From: Salipiger profundus
GTDB lineage: Bacteria > Pseudomonadota > Alphaproteobacteria > Rhodobacterales > Rhodobacteraceae
Assembly: GCF_001969385.1 (NCBI RefSeq)
Contig: NZ_CP014796.1
Span: 3,117,501 to 3,181,500 of the forward strand
Direction: 5' to 3'
DNA: 64,000 nucleotides
The notes under the pieces were generated by a model. It was given only the letters and a program-made list of their open reading frames with translations, was not told where the DNA came from and made no database searches. The position numbers were made by a program, and so were the translations under genes. This document shows, one piece after another, positions 3,139-37,487 of the stretch (its first letter is position 1; each line of letters begins with the position of its first letter).

Positions 3139-4137
3139 ATGGCCCGGGACCCCGGCCTTTCCAAATCCCTCGATTGGTTCATCGACGGCCCGCAGCCGAT
3201 GAAGTGGCGCGACGTGGCGACGATGGTGCTTGCCGTGGTCGTCCCGCCGGCGGTCGCGGTCTGGTTCTTCGGCGTGGCCGGCATGGCGGCCTTTGCCGCC
3301 TCGATGCCGGCGCACCTTGCCAGCCGCGAGGGCGGCGGGCTGGTTGCGCTGCTCGCCACGATGACCACGGGTCTTGCGGGGATGGTGGCAATCGGCGATC
3401 CGGTCATGGCGCTTCTGGTCGCGGGCTGCCTGTCGGTGATGACCGCCATCGCCTCGCATCACCAGCTTGCGCGCCCGGCAATGCGCGCGCTGCTGACCTG
3501 GACCCTGTTCACCGCGCCGATCATCCCTGACGACAACCTGCCGCAGCTTTTCGTCCTCTACCTTGCCGGCATGGTCTGGAGCGTCTCGGTCACCGTGCTG
3601 CTGGGCCGGGCCGGAACGCCTGCGGCGCTGACCGCCCAGAGCCGTGTCTACAGCGTGACCTTCGGCGTGGTCTTCGGCATCGGGCTGGTCTCTGCGGTCT
3701 GGCTCGGTGGCCAGCTGTTCGACGACCACGGCTTCTGGCTGCCGCTGACCTTCGTGATCCTGTCGATGCCACCCTATGGCGCGGTGTTCTCGCGCAGCCT
3801 CAAGCGGACGCTGGCGACACTGGTGGGGGCGCTCGCCTCGGTTGCGCTGTCGCAGCTGTCGCCGCCGACGGCGGTGACCGTGCTTCTCGCCGTGGCCGCG
3901 TTCCCGCTGGCCTTCCGCTTCATTCCGCGCAGCTCGTTCATTGGTGTCACGCTGCTGACCTTCACCATTCTCGAGGCGCTCTCGATGATCTCGGACGTGG
4001 ACATGCTGGCCGAGGCGCGCATCGAAACGGTGATCCTCGCGAGCCTCATGACGCTGGTGCTTGGCCTTGTTGCCGCCGGGGTGCTTGCCGTGCTGAAGCC
4101 CAATGCACTGCGCGAGATCACCTCGCCGAAGCAGTAG
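3139..4137 (+). CDS. FUSC-like integral membrane protein
   Basis: Polytopic inner-membrane protein of the fusaric-acid-resistance/aromatic-acid exporter (FUSC) type; substrate unknown. About 10 hydrophobic segments are visible, with a repeat-like second half beginning FWLPLTFVILSMPPYGAVFSR, which resembles the FUSC core (a conserved W-x-LT-x-V segment followed by a basic loop). ATG 3139 is chosen because GGAG lies 8 nt upstream; GTG 3130 would add three residues. It ends 18 bp from the convergent phosphotransferase gene. No cytoplasmic FUSC domain or partner membrane-fusion gene is nearby, so an export role is only inferred. Confidence 0.65.
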   Translation: MARDPGLSKSLDWFIDGPQPMKWRDVATMVLAVVVPPAVAVWFFGVAGMAAFAASMPAHLASREGGGLVALLATMTTGLAGMVAIGDPVMALLVAGCLSVMTAIASHHQLARPAMRALLTWTLFTAPIIPDDNLPQLFVLYLAGMVWSVSVTVLLGRAGTPAALTAQSRVYSVTFGVVFGIGLVSAVWLGGQLFDDHGFWLPLTFVILSMPPYGAVFSRSLKRTLATLVGALASVALSQLSPPTAVTVLLAVAAFPLAFRFIPRSSFIGVTLLTFTILEALSMISDVDMLAEARIETVILASLMTLVLGLVAAGVLAVLKPNALREITSPKQ

Positions 4138-32803: not shown

Positions 32804-33738
32804 TCCACGGCCCCCATGTCGATGGCGAGCTCTGCGACGGGGCGCGTCGCCGCGGTCAGCCCGGCCTCTTGCAGGAAGGTCTCGAAGCGGGCGTAGCGGC
32901 CCGCGTCCAGCGCCTCGGGGCGCAGCGCGAAACGCGGGATGGTGTCGGCCCAGGCGCGTTCGTTCAACGCGTCCTGAAGCTCGGTCGAGGTCGCGGCGAA
33001 GGTCTCCCAGCTCTCCTGCGGATGGTTGACGATGTATTGCGTCGCGCGCTCGGTGGCCGACAGGAAGCGCCGGACCAGGTCCCGGTCCATGGTCTCGGGG
33101 TTGGCGACGTAGATCAGCTCGTCATAGGGCGGCACGCCCTCCTCCTCGGGGTAGAAGCAACGGCCCGCGACGCCCTCGATCTCCATCTGGTTCAGCTCGA
33201 AGTTGCGGAAGGCCCCGATCACCGCATCGACCTGCCCCGACATGAGCGCGGGCGACAGCGACCAGTTGACGTTGACCATCTCGACATCGTCCGGCGAAAG
33301 GCCCGCCTGCCCCAGCATCGCCGAGAGCACCGCGCCCTCGACACCCGAGACCGAGAAGCCCACCTTGCGGTCCTTCAGGTCGGCAATCTCTTCGATGGGG
33401 CCGTCGTCGAGCACCAGCAGGCAGTTCAGCGGGGTCGAGACCAGTGTGCCGACCCGCACCAGCGGCATCCCCTCGGCCACCTGCAGGTGCAGCTGCGGCT
33501 GGTACGAGATGGCAAGATCGGCGCGACCGGCTGCGGCCATCTTCGGCGGGTCCGAGGGGTCGGCGGGCGCGATCACCTCGACCTCGAGACCGGCGTCGGC
33601 GAAATAGCCCTCTTCCTGCGCGATGACGATGGGGCCGTGGTCGGGATTGACGAACCAGTCGAGCACGATGGTGAGCTTGTCCTGCGCGAGGGCGGGCGTG
33701 GCCGCGAAAAGCGCAAGCGCGGTGAGCATGGGTTTCAT
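32800..33738 (-). CDS. thiY: NMT1/THI5-like substrate-binding protein for a thiamine precursor
   Basis: Periplasmic binding protein, 312 aa from ATG 33738, with a signal peptide ending ATPALAQD near residue 20. The opening VLDWFVNPDHGPIVIAQEEG is the hallmark of ThiY/NMT1-like proteins that bind N-formyl-aminomethylpyrimidine (family knowledge). ISYQPQLHLQVAEG and GFSVSGVEGAVL follow. Position between thiF and tenA, with 4-nt overlaps at both ends, supports pyrimidine uptake as its job. Confidence 0.92.
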   Translation of the reverse strand: MKPMLTALALFAATPALAQDKLTIVLDWFVNPDHGPIVIAQEEGYFADAGLEVEVIAPADPSDPPKMAAAGRADLAISYQPQLHLQVAEGMPLVRVGTLVSTPLNCLLVLDDGPIEEIADLKDRKVGFSVSGVEGAVLSAMLGQAGLSPDDVEMVNVNWSLSPALMSGQVDAVIGAFRNFELNQMEIEGVAGRCFYPEEEGVPPYDELIYVANPETMDRDLVRRFLSATERATQYIVNHPQESWETFAATSTELQDALNERAWADTIPRFALRPEALDAGRYARFETFLQEAGLTAATRPVAELAIDMGAVE

Positions 33739-34718
33739 TCGGTATCTCCGGGTTGGTCGCCAAGAGCGACGAGCTTGATGTCTCCGGCCCAGACTTGGGC
33801 CAGCCGGTCCGCCGCCTGCCACGAGCGCAGGCCGGAGCGGCAACACAGGACGGCGCGCTGACCGGGGTCCGGCAGCGGCCCGCCGGGACCGAAGGCGGTC
33901 ACCGGCAGCCGATGCGCATCGGGGCGCACCAGCGGCGCCTCGGTCTCGGCGCGCAGATCGACGACGAAATCGCCGGCGGCGATGCCGGCGGGATCGAGAA
34001 AGCGCGGGGCGTGGTCGGGTTCCGGCGCGCCGGTGAAGCGGAAGCCGCCGAAGCGGAACCCCTGCGCCTCGAAGGTGACGAGCTGGCCGAGGGGCGACGG
34101 CGCGACTCCGGCGAGCAGCGCCAGCGCCATCTGCGCCTGCAGCGCTCCGATGGTCCCAACGACCGGTCCCAGCACGCCGTCCTCGGCGCAGGAGCCGGCG
34201 CGCTGCGGCAGGTCGGGAAACACCGCCCGCAGGCTGGGCGCGCCGCCGCAGAAGGCGCCGACGTGTCCGCCGGTGCCGATCACCGAGGCACTGACCAGCG
34301 GCTGCCCCGTCGCGTGGCAGCTGTCCGAGAGGATATAGCTCACCGCGAAACTGTCGGCGCAGTCGAGCACGAGGTCGGCGCCTGCGCAGAGCGCCGCGGC
34401 GTTGTCCGGGCCGAGCGCGTCCACGACCGCGTCGATGTGCACGTCGGCGTTCAGGGCCCGGATCGCCGCCGCCGCGACCTCGGCCTTGGGCGACCCGGCA
34501 TCGGTCTCGCGGAACAGGGTCTGGCGGTGCAGGTTGCTCGCCTCGACCCGGTCGGGATCGACCAGCGTGATCCGCCCCACCCCGGCGCCGCCGAGATATT
34601 GCAGAACCGGCGCCGCAAGACCGCCCGCGCCCACCACCAGCACATGGGCGGCGGCCAGCGCGGCCTGCCCCGCCGCACCGAACTCCGGCACCGCCACCTG
34701 TCGGGCGTAGCGGGTCAT
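33735..34718 (-). CDS. thiF: ThiF/MoeB-type adenylyltransferase with C-terminal rhodanese domain
   Basis: Activates the C-terminus of ThiS by adenylation and helps load sulfur, 327 aa from ATG 34718. The E1-like domain (residues 1-235) has the nucleotide motif VVGAGGLAAPVLQYL, ASNLHRQTLF and the catalytic cysteine in SCAEDGVLGP. The rhodanese domain (about 240-327) carries CCRSGLRS with the persulfide cysteine. Unusually, the paired CxxC zinc cysteines are missing: the segment normally reading C-x-x-C before the LFP-like turn is APSLRAVFPDLP. The fusion resembles MoeZ/ThiF-rhodanese proteins. Confidence 0.9.
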   Translation of the reverse strand: MTRYARQVAVPEFGAAGQAALAAAHVLVVGAGGLAAPVLQYLGGAGVGRITLVDPDRVEASNLHRQTLFRETDAGSPKAEVAAAAIRALNADVHIDAVVDALGPDNAAALCAGADLVLDCADSFAVSYILSDSCHATGQPLVSASVIGTGGHVGAFCGGAPSLRAVFPDLPQRAGSCAEDGVLGPVVGTIGALQAQMALALLAGVAPSPLGQLVTFEAQGFRFGGFRFTGAPEPDHAPRFLDPAGIAAGDFVVDLRAETEAPLVRPDAHRLPVTAFGPGGPLPDPGQRAVLCCRSGLRSWQAADRLAQVWAGDIKLVALGDQPGDTE

Positions 34719-35311
34719 CGTGTCACCTCGATCCAGTCGCGCGCACGTGCCTCGGGGTCGTCGTGCAGGGTGATGTCGGTCACCACCGAGACAATGTCGG
34801 CGCCCGCCGCGAAGGCCCCGGCCGCGCGCTCGACCCGCATCCCGCCGATGGCGACAAGCGGCAGCTCTCCGACAAGGCGCTTCCACTCGGTGACGCGCTC
34901 GAGCCCCTGCTGCTCCCATTTCATCTTCTTGAGGATCGTCGGATAGACCGGCCCGAGCGCCACGTAGTCGGGCCCGAGCAGCAGCGCCCGGTCGAGTTCA
35001 TCGTGGTCGTGCGTGCTGATGCCGAGCCGCAGCCCGGCACGCCGGATCGCGGGCAGGTCGGCCTCGTCGAGGTCCTCCTGCCCGAGGTGCAGCCAGTCGC
35101 AGCCCGCCTCGATCGCCACGCGCCAGTGATCGTTGACCACCAGCACCGCGCCATGCTGCCGGCAGAGCGCCTGCGCGCGGCTGATGATGGGAAGAAGCTC
35201 GACCTCGGGCGTGTCCTTGATGCGCAGCTGCACCAGTTTCACGCCGAGCGGCAGCATCCGTTCCAGCCACGCCACGCTGTCGAAGATCGGGTAGAACCTG
35301 TCGAGCCTCAT
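34715..35311 (-). CDS. thiE: Thiamine phosphate synthase
   Basis: Joins HMP pyrophosphate to the thiazole phosphate, 198 aa, TIM-barrel. [10 protein letters not shown] (near residue 24), [11 protein letters not shown] (near 57), LHLGQEDL and the glycine-rich VAIGGM near 150 match ThiE/TenI. The pyrophosphate loop, usually GP-x-[FY]-P-T-x-x-K, is present as [18 protein letters not shown], slightly longer and more basic than in E. coli, as in several alphaproteobacterial versions. It overlaps thiG and thiF by 4 nt on either side. Confidence 0.9.
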
Positions 35312-36078
35312 GCGAGAAACGCCTTTCCGATCAAAGGGGTGGAAGGCGCGGCCATGTCGCGCGCCTCCATCGGGTCGGCCTCGAAGGCCAGCCGACCGGC
35401 CTCGACCGCGCGGGCGAAACCCTGCGCCATGGCGGGCGGATCACCGGCCTTGGCGACGGCGGTGTTCAGCAGGACGGCATCGAAGCCCATCTCCATCGCC
35501 GCCGCCGCCTGGCTCGGCAGGCCGAGCCCCGCATCGACCACCATCGGCACGTCGGGGAACTGGGCGCGGAGCGTGCGCAGCCCGTAGATGTTGGTCAGCC
35601 CCAACCCGGTGCCGATGGGTGCGCCCCACGGCATCAGCACCTCGCAACCGACCGACAGCAGCCGGTCGGCCAGCACGATGTCCTCGGTGGTGTAGGGAAA
35701 GACCTTGAAGCCGTCGTCCACGAGGATGCGCGCGGCCTCGACCAGCCCGAAGGGATCGGGTTGCAGCGTGTCCGCGTGGCCGATGACCTCGAGCTTGATC
35801 CAGTCGGTCTCGAACAGCTCGCGCGCCATCTGCGCCGTGGTCACCGCCTCGCGCACCGAGTGGCAACCGGCGGTGTTGGGCAGGACCGCGACACCAAGGT
35901 CTCGGACGAGATCCCAGAACGCCGCGCCCGCCTTCTCGTGACCGGCCTCGCGGCGGACCGAAACGGTGGCGATGCCGGCGCCGGAACGCCGAAAGGCGTC
36001 CGCGAGCACTCCGGGCGAGGGATATTGCGCCGTGCCCAGCATCAGGCGCGATACGATGTCGGTATCGTAGAGCTTCAT
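35308..36078 (-). CDS. thiG: Thiazole synthase
   Basis: Builds the thiazole phosphate from deoxyxylulose phosphate, ThiS-thiocarboxylate and dehydroglycine, 256 aa, TIM-barrel. [15 protein letters not shown] (near residue 11), the Schiff-base lysine in DWIKLEVIG (near 97), [13 protein letters not shown] (near 145) and [13 protein letters not shown] (near 176) are typical. It is 1 bp after thiS and overlaps thiE by 4 nt. Confidence 0.97.
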
Positions 36079-36079
36079 C

Positions 36080-36277
36080 TCAGCCTCCTTGCCGCGGGGT
36101 GACGATCTCGACCCGGTCGCCCGGCGAGAGCGCGGTGCCGGCCCGGGCGGCGCTCGGCACGAAGTCCTCGTTGAGCGCGGTGGCGACCTTTGAATCGCCG
36201 TAGCCCAGTTCCTCGAGCGCGCCTGCCAGCGTCGTGGCGCGGACCTCGGTCGCGGTTCCGTTAATCGTGATCTTCAT
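36080..36277 (-). CDS. thiS: Sulfur carrier protein ThiS
   Basis: Ubiquitin-fold sulfur carrier, 65 aa, for thiazole formation. It opens [12 protein letters not shown], has the NEDFVPSA core, and ends in the diagnostic Gly-Gly (TPRQGG) that is adenylated by ThiF. The start at 36277 lies inside the end of thiO (17-nt overlap). Confidence 0.97.
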
Positions 36278-37238
36278 CCATGAACTCCGCTGTCGTTCCG
36301 TCGCAGGCCGCCGCCACCGCCATTTTCGCAAGCGCCGGCGCAAGCAGAAAACCGTGACGGAACAAGCCGTTGACATGAAAGGTGTCGCCCCTGCGCCGGA
36401 CGCGGGGCAGGTTGTCGGGAAAGGCCGGGCGCGCATCGGCGCCGATCTCGACCAGCTCGGCCTCGCCGAAGGCCGGGTGCAGCGCGTAGGCCGCCGAGAG
36501 CAGTTCGAGCACCGAGCGCACGCTGCGCCGCCGGTCCTCGCTTTCGATCTGCGTGGCGCCAAGCATGAAGAGCCCGTCGGCGCGGGGAACGATGTAGAGC
36601 GGATAACGCGGGTGCAGCAGACGCACCGGGCGCGACAGGCGGATGTCATGGCTGCGAAGCACCGCCATCTCGCCCTTGACCCCGCGCAGGTCGCTCAGTC
36701 GGTCGCGCGCCGAAAGACCCCGGCAGTCGAAGGTCAGCCCCTCCGGCGTTCCGCGCTCGGCGCGGAAACGGACGCCCGCCGCCTCGAGACGGTCGCGCAG
36801 GCAGGTGAGCGCCGCACGCGGGTCGAGATGCGCCTCGCCGGGGAAGAGCAGCGCCCGCTCGAAGCGACCGTCGAGGTCGGGCTCGAGTTCGGCAATGCCG
36901 TTGGCATCCTGTGTCACGTGCTCGGCGGTCCGGCGTGCGAAACGGTCGAGCTCGCGCCGGTCGCGGCCCAGCGTCAGCACAAGCGTGCCGCGCCGCTGCA
37001 CCTCGACACCCTGCGCAGCCCACCAGTCCGCGGCCTCCTGCCCGAGGCGGATGACGGGCTCCTCGGCGCTTTCGCCCTCGCAGAACGGCGCGAGCATGCC
37101 CCCCGCCCACCAAGAGCAGCCATGCGGGCCGGGACGGGGCGACGGATCGCAGACCGTCACGTCATGGCCACGCGCGACCAGCTCGGTCGCGACGCAGAGA
37201 CCGGCGACGCCGGCACCGATGACCGTGGCGCGGGTCAT
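36261..37238 (-). CDS. thiO: Glycine oxidase ThiO
   Basis: FAD enzyme oxidising glycine to the imine needed for the thiazole ring in aerobic bacteria, 325 aa. The dinucleotide motif [20 protein letters not shown] (residues 5-24) is clear. Further DAO-family features are [11 protein letters not shown] (near 50), DCRGLSARD and the C-terminal [13 protein letters not shown] that closes the FAD site. It is the first full-size gene after the TPP riboswitch. Its ATG overlaps the stop of a 29-codon leader ORF; only a weak GAGG ribosome site precedes it. Confidence 0.95.
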
Positions 37239-37324
37239 GGGCGGCCTCGCCTACGGACGGCGGGGCGAGCGCTGCCGCGCAAGGCGGGCGCGGTGTTCAG
37301 GCGGTCGGATGGGTGACGGCTCAT
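37235..37324 (-). CDS. Possible leader ORF between TPP riboswitch and thiO
   Basis: A 29-codon frame starts at ATG 37324 and stops as ATGA across the thiO start codon, the same coupling used through the rest of the operon. GGAGGA lies 8 nt before its ATG, inside a 10-bp hairpin. The predicted peptide (MSRHPSDRLNTAP at its start) is Arg-rich with no similarity I recognise. It may matter only as a translated control element for thiO; whether it is translated is not known. Confidence 0.5.
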   Translation of the reverse strand: MSRHPSDRLNTAPALRGSARPAVRRRGRP

Positions 37325-37329
37325 GCAAG

Positions 37330-37357
37330 GTCCTCCATCGACGCAAGGATGGAGGAC
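37330..37357 (-). promoter_or_regulatory. Ribosome-site-sequestering hairpin, expression platform of the TPP riboswitch
   Basis: On the transcript, GTCCTCCATC pairs perfectly with GATGGAGGAC (8-nt loop). The right arm contains GGAGGA, the ribosome site of the leader ORF at 37324. No U run follows, so control of translation rather than intrinsic termination is inferred. Confidence 0.6.
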
Positions 37358-37397
37358 GACCGGACGCGGAGAGACTCCCCCTGTTCGGTCGAGCTCC

Positions 37398-37475
37398 GTT
37401 CCCTACGCCGGTATTAGCCGGATCAGGTTCTATGGGTCGGCTGTCGCCTCTCAGCCCCTGACGGGGCACCCCAAC
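37398..37475 (-). promoter_or_regulatory. TPP riboswitch (THI element)
   Basis: The transcript contains the two conserved THI cores: GGGGCTGAGAGG with CTGAGA for pyrimidine binding, and ACCTGATCCGGCTAATACCG followed by GCGTAGGGAAC. The P1 ends (GTTGGGGTGCC at the 5' side, GTAGGGAAC at the 3' side) can pair. It sits 160 nt upstream of thiO and would repress the operon when thiamine pyrophosphate is plentiful (established for this element). Confidence 0.97.
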
Positions 37476-37487
37476 GGATTCACCACG

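Follow-up and report, generated by a model that had tools for sequence, protein, structure and literature searches.

A thiD remnant as the probable translation relay between a TPP riboswitch and thiO in Salipiger profundus

Which open reading frame is controlled by a TPP riboswitch when the first intact gene behind it has little ribosome-binding site of its own? The question is raised by the thi operon of Salipiger profundus, in which the riboswitch lies ahead of thiO-thiS-thiG-thiE-thiF, as assigned by position and family matches, and GCGAGG is the only ribosome-site candidate upstream of thiO. The window analysed here is a stretch of 64,000 nucleotides (contig NZ_CP014796.1, positions 3,117,501 to 3,181,500), and the features concerned are collected in Table 1. 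A preliminary description of this DNA had proposed a TPP riboswitch, a perfect 10-bp hairpin burying a GGAGGA ribosome site, a 29-codon ORF with an ATGA across the thiO start, and a weak site for thiO itself; all four were confirmed. The RF00059 aptamer is the sole Rfam match at gathering level within the window, and shows standard pairing at 24 of the 25 model pairs.

Table 1. Leader and thi operon features in the window (positions within the 64,000-nt stretch).
Feature	Position	Strand	Evidence or remark
TPP riboswitch aptamer (THI element, RF00059)	37383..37483	-	78.8 bits, E 6.9e-14; gathering score 54.3
Predicted anti-antisequestor, GGAGCUCGACCG	37386..37397	-	overlaps P1 3' strand; in predicted ligand-free minimum
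Sequestering hairpin, 5' arm (anti-Shine-Dalgarno), GTCCTCCATC	37348..37357	-	sequence; 10-bp arm duplex -17.2 kcal/mol
Sequestering hairpin, 3' arm, GATGGAGGAC	37330..37339	-	sequence; contains GGAGGA 37336-37331
Leader ORF, thiD remnant	37235..37324	-	sequence; 29 codons + TGA; 5' 57 nt similar to thiD starts
Overlap of leader stop and thiO start, ATGA	37235..37238	-	sequence; 4 nt; thiO ATG at 37238
thiO, glycine oxidase, first intact operon gene	36261..37238	-	TIGR02352, 241.2 bits, just below cut-off 250.8
thiS	36080..36277	-	TIGR01683, 60.7 bits, cut-off 37.45; 17-nt overlap with thiO
thiG	35308..36078	-	position, NCBIfam without match; 1-nt gap after thiS
thiE	34715..35311	-	NF000734, 342.3 bits, cut-off 252; 4-nt overlap with thiG
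thiF	33735..34718	-	TIGR02356, 236.6 bits, under cut-off 275.25; 4-nt overlap with thiE

The short overlaps and gaps from thiO to thiF indicate that the operon genes are apparently coupled in a series headed by the leader ORF. The gene that we take to be thiG was named from its position and sequence. ThiF extends about 125 residues past its family match, and includes a CRSGLRS stretch that is presumably rhodanese-like. Behind thiF, the segment 31413-33735 encodes an SsuA-family binding protein (match below cut-off), TenA (thiaminase II, a salvage enzyme) and an ORF resembling an ABC ATPase; pyrimidine salvage and uptake may thus belong to the same operon as the thi genes.

All ten pairs of the hairpin (37357-37330) are formed around a loop of 8 nt, and GGAGGA is spaced 6 nt from the leader ATG at 37324. 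For the thiO ribosome site, 21 kcal/mol was needed for opening (a single computed value, obtained without control), and a weak and structured site of this kind fits coupling. The sequence 3' of the hairpin has no T-run, and the reading of the hairpin as a terminator was rejected on this ground. The strength of the stem was reached by 3% of 100 dinucleotide shuffles of the sequence preceding the ribosome site; the bare fold energy of the stretch was unremarkable (z of -1.54 and -0.77 in two runs). Under a null of shuffling and random frame, the probability that one 29-codon ORF would end at thiO is about 0.28. The significance of the arrangement lies in comparison with relatives, not in the window by itself.

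Folding of 37483-37300 gave a free minimum of -81.0 kcal/mol. Here the anti-Shine-Dalgarno arm is taken up in pairs with P1 and the 3' side of the aptamer, so that the 10-bp hairpin does not form, and GGAGGA is partly paired within a weak local helix. The predicted anti-antisequestor GGAGCUCGACCG makes 10 of 12 pairs with 37362-37351 (duplex -17.7 kcal/mol). When the aptamer was enforced, the energy was -74.6 kcal/mol, a cost of 6.4 kcal/mol, the hairpin closed and the ribosome site was fully paired. A TPP-binding energy greater than this cost would flip the fold. The unpaired fraction of GGAGG was 0.39 in the free RNA and 0.00 with P1 and P2 forced. The aptamer-folded RNA is predicted to hide the ribosome site of the leader, and the free RNA to hide it less; in the energy model of the window, the aptamer/antisequestor and Shine-Dalgarno hairpin structures are mutually exclusive.

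Within the genus, 20 genomes were sampled, of which nine carried the TPP element and a close thiO on one fetched stretch. In seven of these (G002 and G007-G012) thiD lies between the two; it is absent from the window and from G017. In the Salipiger abyssi contig (G002, locus L076), the thiD ribosome site lies within a compact CCTCCACC/GGTGGAGG hairpin, and the ThiD N-terminus reads MTPHPSALTIAGSD. A wider locus set was then collected: 80 named loci, the top-scoring ones among 542 or more; 30 loci from 394 family genomes drawn, 128 of which matched thiO with E <= 1e-60; and 97 upstream stretches from the remaining thiO matches. The genome G097, in which the locus runs to a contig edge, lay outside the set. 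A total of 215 of 223 loci could be placed; in the other eight (L041-L047 and L155) the start motif of thiO could not be recognised. Seven of these, L041-L047, belong to the genus but have a more distant thiO, and their leaders lie outside the survey.

Among the 215 placed loci, duplicates counted, 155 showed the order TPP, full-length thiD and thiO, with thiO at a distance of at least 840 nt. The TPP element was near thiO with thiD absent in 11, thiD was shortened in six (three keeping most of it and three a fragment), neither TPP nor thiD was found upstream of thiO in 38, and thiD stood without detected TPP in five, three of them at contig ends. The TPP-thiO distance was 868-967 nt in the 145 distinct intact loci, of which 112 have a thiD-thiO overlap of 4 nt and 12 an overlap of 8 nt; in this count, a thiO start yielding 4 nt took precedence over other possible starts. 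At one locus (G130:C9:25595-26556) the thiO match is broken into two parts that lie in different frames, as though by a frameshift.

After removal of duplicates and inclusion of the later-found L292, the loss set comprised 11 distinct loci with thiD lost or broken. An open leader of 20 to 138 codons was present in ten of the 11, overlapping thiO by 4 nt in eight cases, 8 nt in one and 16 nt in one; conservation of frame and stop position, on which the preliminary description had made its reading depend, was therefore borne out. The 4-nt overlap reads ATGA in these leaders, except for GTGA in Albimonas pacifica. The leaders of Heliomarina baculiformis (L078, 138 codons) and Primorskyibacter flagellatus (L090, 123 codons) are clearly thiD with large parts missing, and these in-frame remnants, together with the shorter stubs, represent decay intermediates. 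The stubs include L230 in G378 (58 codons, ending 8 nt inside thiO), Amaricoccus solimangrovi L131 (25 codons, ending 16 nt inside thiO) and, all with a 4-nt overlap, L166 in G281 (55 codons), L292 in G417 (43 codons), Citreicella C3M06 L070 (23 codons), Albimonas CAU 1670 L084 (21 codons, TTG start) and Albimonas pacifica L086 (20 codons). In the eleventh locus (L193/L284, G356), thiD is gone and a start is fused in frame to thiO; here an N-extended ThiO is apparently under direct control of the riboswitch, an alternative outcome to the relay. A congener of L230 (L293) carries a full-length thiD (tblastn 5-266 of 267) with an 8-nt overlap on thiO, and this shared overlap indicates that the L230 stub retained the ancestral junction. 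In Amaricoccus solimangrovi (L131, 3840-4001), the leader ATG lies 2 nt past the P1 strand AACGG, leaving no space for a separate Shine-Dalgarno hairpin, and the sole purine-rich site is inside the aptamer, which suggests direct sequestration of the ribosome site.

The origin of the leader, which the preliminary description had left out, was examined by ungapped, in-register comparison of the first 57 nt with the thiD starts of 12 relatives, using 5000 codon shuffles. The window leader gave an identity of 0.532, compared with 0.354 in the shuffle null, and that of its sister L070 gave 0.556, compared with 0.363; none of the 5000 shuffles was as high in either case. The similarity was marginal for the Albimonas pair (p 0.04 and 0.06), and no signal was detected in this 57-nt test for L166, L230 and L131, the thiD ancestry of which rests on position, not sequence. 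The register used is the commoner one (12 of 21 relatives), adopted after the result for the rarer one (8 of 21), in which the signal was absent, was known. In none of seven leaders tested did the last 45 nt resemble the thiD end (lowest p 0.056). The 29-codon ORF gave no match in an NCBIfam search and a full kinase domain is absent, so that it is a thiD remnant, not a ThiD. By its sequence, the leader ORF of the window is what remains of thiD; as a hollowed-out form of the usual first operon gene, it would imply that the riboswitch never moved.

Leader lengths differ by 18 nt between the window and L070, by 3 nt within the Albimonas pair and by 36 nt between G281 and G417, in all three sister pairs by a multiple of three. 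Comparison of the peptides by eye, including that of L070, revealed no evident shared motif. Frame and junction are kept, and the peptide is not; the Arg-rich peptide of the window is best read as GC-rich filler, apparently unconserved even between sister species. As a null for the frame, interiors were dinucleotide-shuffled with random length and a stop was sought between -6 and +20 nt relative to the start of thiO. Each of the seven stubs tested had a chance of 0.28-0.35 and each of the two long remnants one of 0.03-0.05, giving a product of 3e-6 for seven events, or 0.003 with the two long remnants left out. On a quickly built tree of 106 thiO rows, eight changes were required for the ten loss rows, one being the fused case, and well-supported branches force only three.

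A stem over the ribosome site better than shuffles (p <= 0.05) was found in 18 of 35 near loci, the window included, and in 43 of 146 distinct leaders. The proposal of a conserved hairpin stood in five of the eight loss loci tested (window, L166, L230, L090 and L078) and failed at this threshold in the other three (L070, L086 and L084). The stems were drawn for each locus as the best for its own sequence, and their pair counts are not an independent test of covariation; the RNAalifold consensus on a MAFFT alignment was weak (-0.41 kcal/mol, 5 pairs). When 29 loci were folded, the mean unpaired fraction of the ribosome site was 0.17 in the free RNA and 0.04 with P1 and P2 forced, a change of at least 0.2 occurring in only eight. 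Among the eight loss loci folded, the window alone changed to this extent and the seven others did not.

Why thiD should be dispensable at these loci is suggested by a second copy. Another full-length thiD was present elsewhere in all ten loss genomes searched, 53-60% identical to the query and all with E below 1e-68; G417, the genome of the L292 stub, lay outside this set. In the genome of the window, the second full-length thiD (L002, minus strand of G000:C2) stands behind its own TPP riboswitch on a 225-kb contig, perhaps a plasmid, and probably made the operon copy redundant. The controls were 30 genomes hand-picked, not at random, from intact loci, and searched at an E cut-off of 1e-30, stricter than that used for the loss genomes. 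A second full thiD was found in one of 29 (G010) and a second fragment in one of 29 (G374); the thirtieth control (G276) has a shortened operon thiD together with a second copy. Fisher's test of 10/10 against 1/29 gave 1.7e-8, and 3.4e-8 with G276 and the G374 fragment included, the loci being treated in both without correction for kinship. The operon thiD of G276 (L072, Allosediminivita pacifica, 3309-3992) lacks about 35 internal codons without change of frame and, with the second full thiD in the same genome, is apparently at the start of decay.

We consider it likely that a vestigial thiD, in the form of the leader ORF, now serves as a translation relay, gated by TPP and coupled to thiO. 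This reading is based on the anatomy, the thiD-start homology and the recurrence of frame and junction as seen in the sequences, from which we infer the ligand response, leader translation, reinitiation at thiO and the order of events. In the ancestral state, a TPP riboswitch would have gated the thiD ribosome site, and thiO and the later genes would have been reached by ribosomes crossing short stop/start overlaps. A second, unlinked thiD would have rendered the operon thiD redundant and its body would have been deleted; the gated start and the open frame ending on thiO would have been retained because they form the ribosome entry point of the operon. The best reading of the present switch is the one proposed earlier, in which TPP hides the ribosome site of the leader and thiO follows by coupling. 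Without TPP, the P1 3' strand and flanking bases would pair with the anti-Shine-Dalgarno arm, GGAGGA would be freed from the hairpin, and ribosomes would translate the 29 codons, terminate at ATGA and reinitiate on thiO. In the presence of TPP, P1 would form, the 10-bp hairpin would close over GGAGGA, and the leader would stay untranslated and thiO silent.

Alternatively, the leader could be passing pseudogene debris, with thiO starting translation by itself, TPP acting on transcription or RNA stability, and the frame due to coincidence or recency. The unconserved peptides, the chance of about 0.3 for any single such junction and the recent look of some losses (the two long remnants, and G378 with a congener holding full thiD) are in agreement with debris. 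We nevertheless regard it as improbable, since ten of the 11 loss loci are in coupling frame and the remaining one is fused in frame, length changes in three sister pairs are multiples of three, and the start and ribosome site are retained; the hairpin without a following T-run and the weak, structured thiO site (computed without control) also speak against it.

An open frame up to thiO would likewise be required if leader translation shielded the nascent RNA from Rho-dependent termination instead of handing ribosomes over to thiO, and GC-rich untranslated leaders are typical targets of Rho. Shielding is unlikely as the main role: it offers no reason for the exact coincidence of stop and start (a 4-nt overlap in eight of ten leaders), although this junction is also an inheritance from thiD, and in the comparable ppe2 system of Mycobacterium tuberculosis the authors, in the text considered here, concluded that Rho was not accountable for the loss of expression (PMC11260477). 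That the eight Arg residues among the 29 codons mark a true leader peptide, sensing something by ribosome stalling or attenuation, is hardly credible, because inspection by eye shows no evident motif common to L070 and the other leaders, no terminator T-run follows the hairpin, and TPP is already sensed by the riboswitch. A functional Arg-rich peptide was rejected for want of evident conservation, and the leader falls outside the attenuation class, the sister peptides being unrelated by eye and the T-run absent.

If the relay is accepted, a concrete and repeated origin is provided for bacterial leader ORFs, namely decay of the first operon gene under selection for coupling. On balance we favour a general route from gene to upstream ORF: operons that are riboswitch-gated and translationally chained could not simply lose their first gene, and a redundant one would be hollowed into a translated, sequence-free relay with only start, frame and stop selected, about seven times by parsimony in the thi operons of this group. 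The series from 138-codon remnants to 20-codon stubs offers natural replicates for testing what an upstream ORF must have in order to deliver ribosomes to the gene behind it, and annotation may miss the ORF that is actually under riboswitch control.

The ordinary TPP-thiD-thiO operons of relatives have the same aptamer class and kind of platform and usually the same 4-nt junction as the window, but have a full-length, presumably functional thiD. In translational TPP riboswitches of the E. coli thiM type, P1 formation leads to closure of a Shine-Dalgarno hairpin, as is predicted for the window; the hidden site of that type, in contrast, belongs directly to the regulated enzyme gene. The closest parallel is ppe2 of M. 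tuberculosis, where a B12 riboswitch is followed by an upstream ORF, uPPE2, with its own ribosome site and an AUGA overlap with a gene lacking one, and where the downstream gene was shown to need translation of the upstream ORF, mainly by termination-reinitiation (PMC11260477, as far as considered here). The hidden ribosome site of the upstream ORF, the NUGA overlap and the downstream gene without a strong site are common to both systems, which differ in ligand, in phylum and in that ours is predicted rather than experimentally tested; the terms 'pseudogene' and 'remnant' are absent from the main text of that paper. For cbrX-cbrA of Pseudomonas putida, translation, not sequence, of a short upstream ORF drives the overlapping gene, but the CbrX sequence is conserved, and the part of the paper considered mentions neither a riboswitch nor an origin from a gene remnant (PMC6591292). 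Upstream ORFs that merely deliver ribosomes are mentioned in a 2025 review of coupling, the main text of which does not contain the terms 'leader peptide' or 'gene loss' (PMC12548453). Among the literature matches listed, there was neither a bacterial TPP riboswitch that works by way of a coupled leader ORF nor such a thiD remnant. Riboswitch-gated coupled upstream ORFs are thus already known, and the extension of such relays to the TPP class and their repeated origin by the hollowing of a gene appear to be new.
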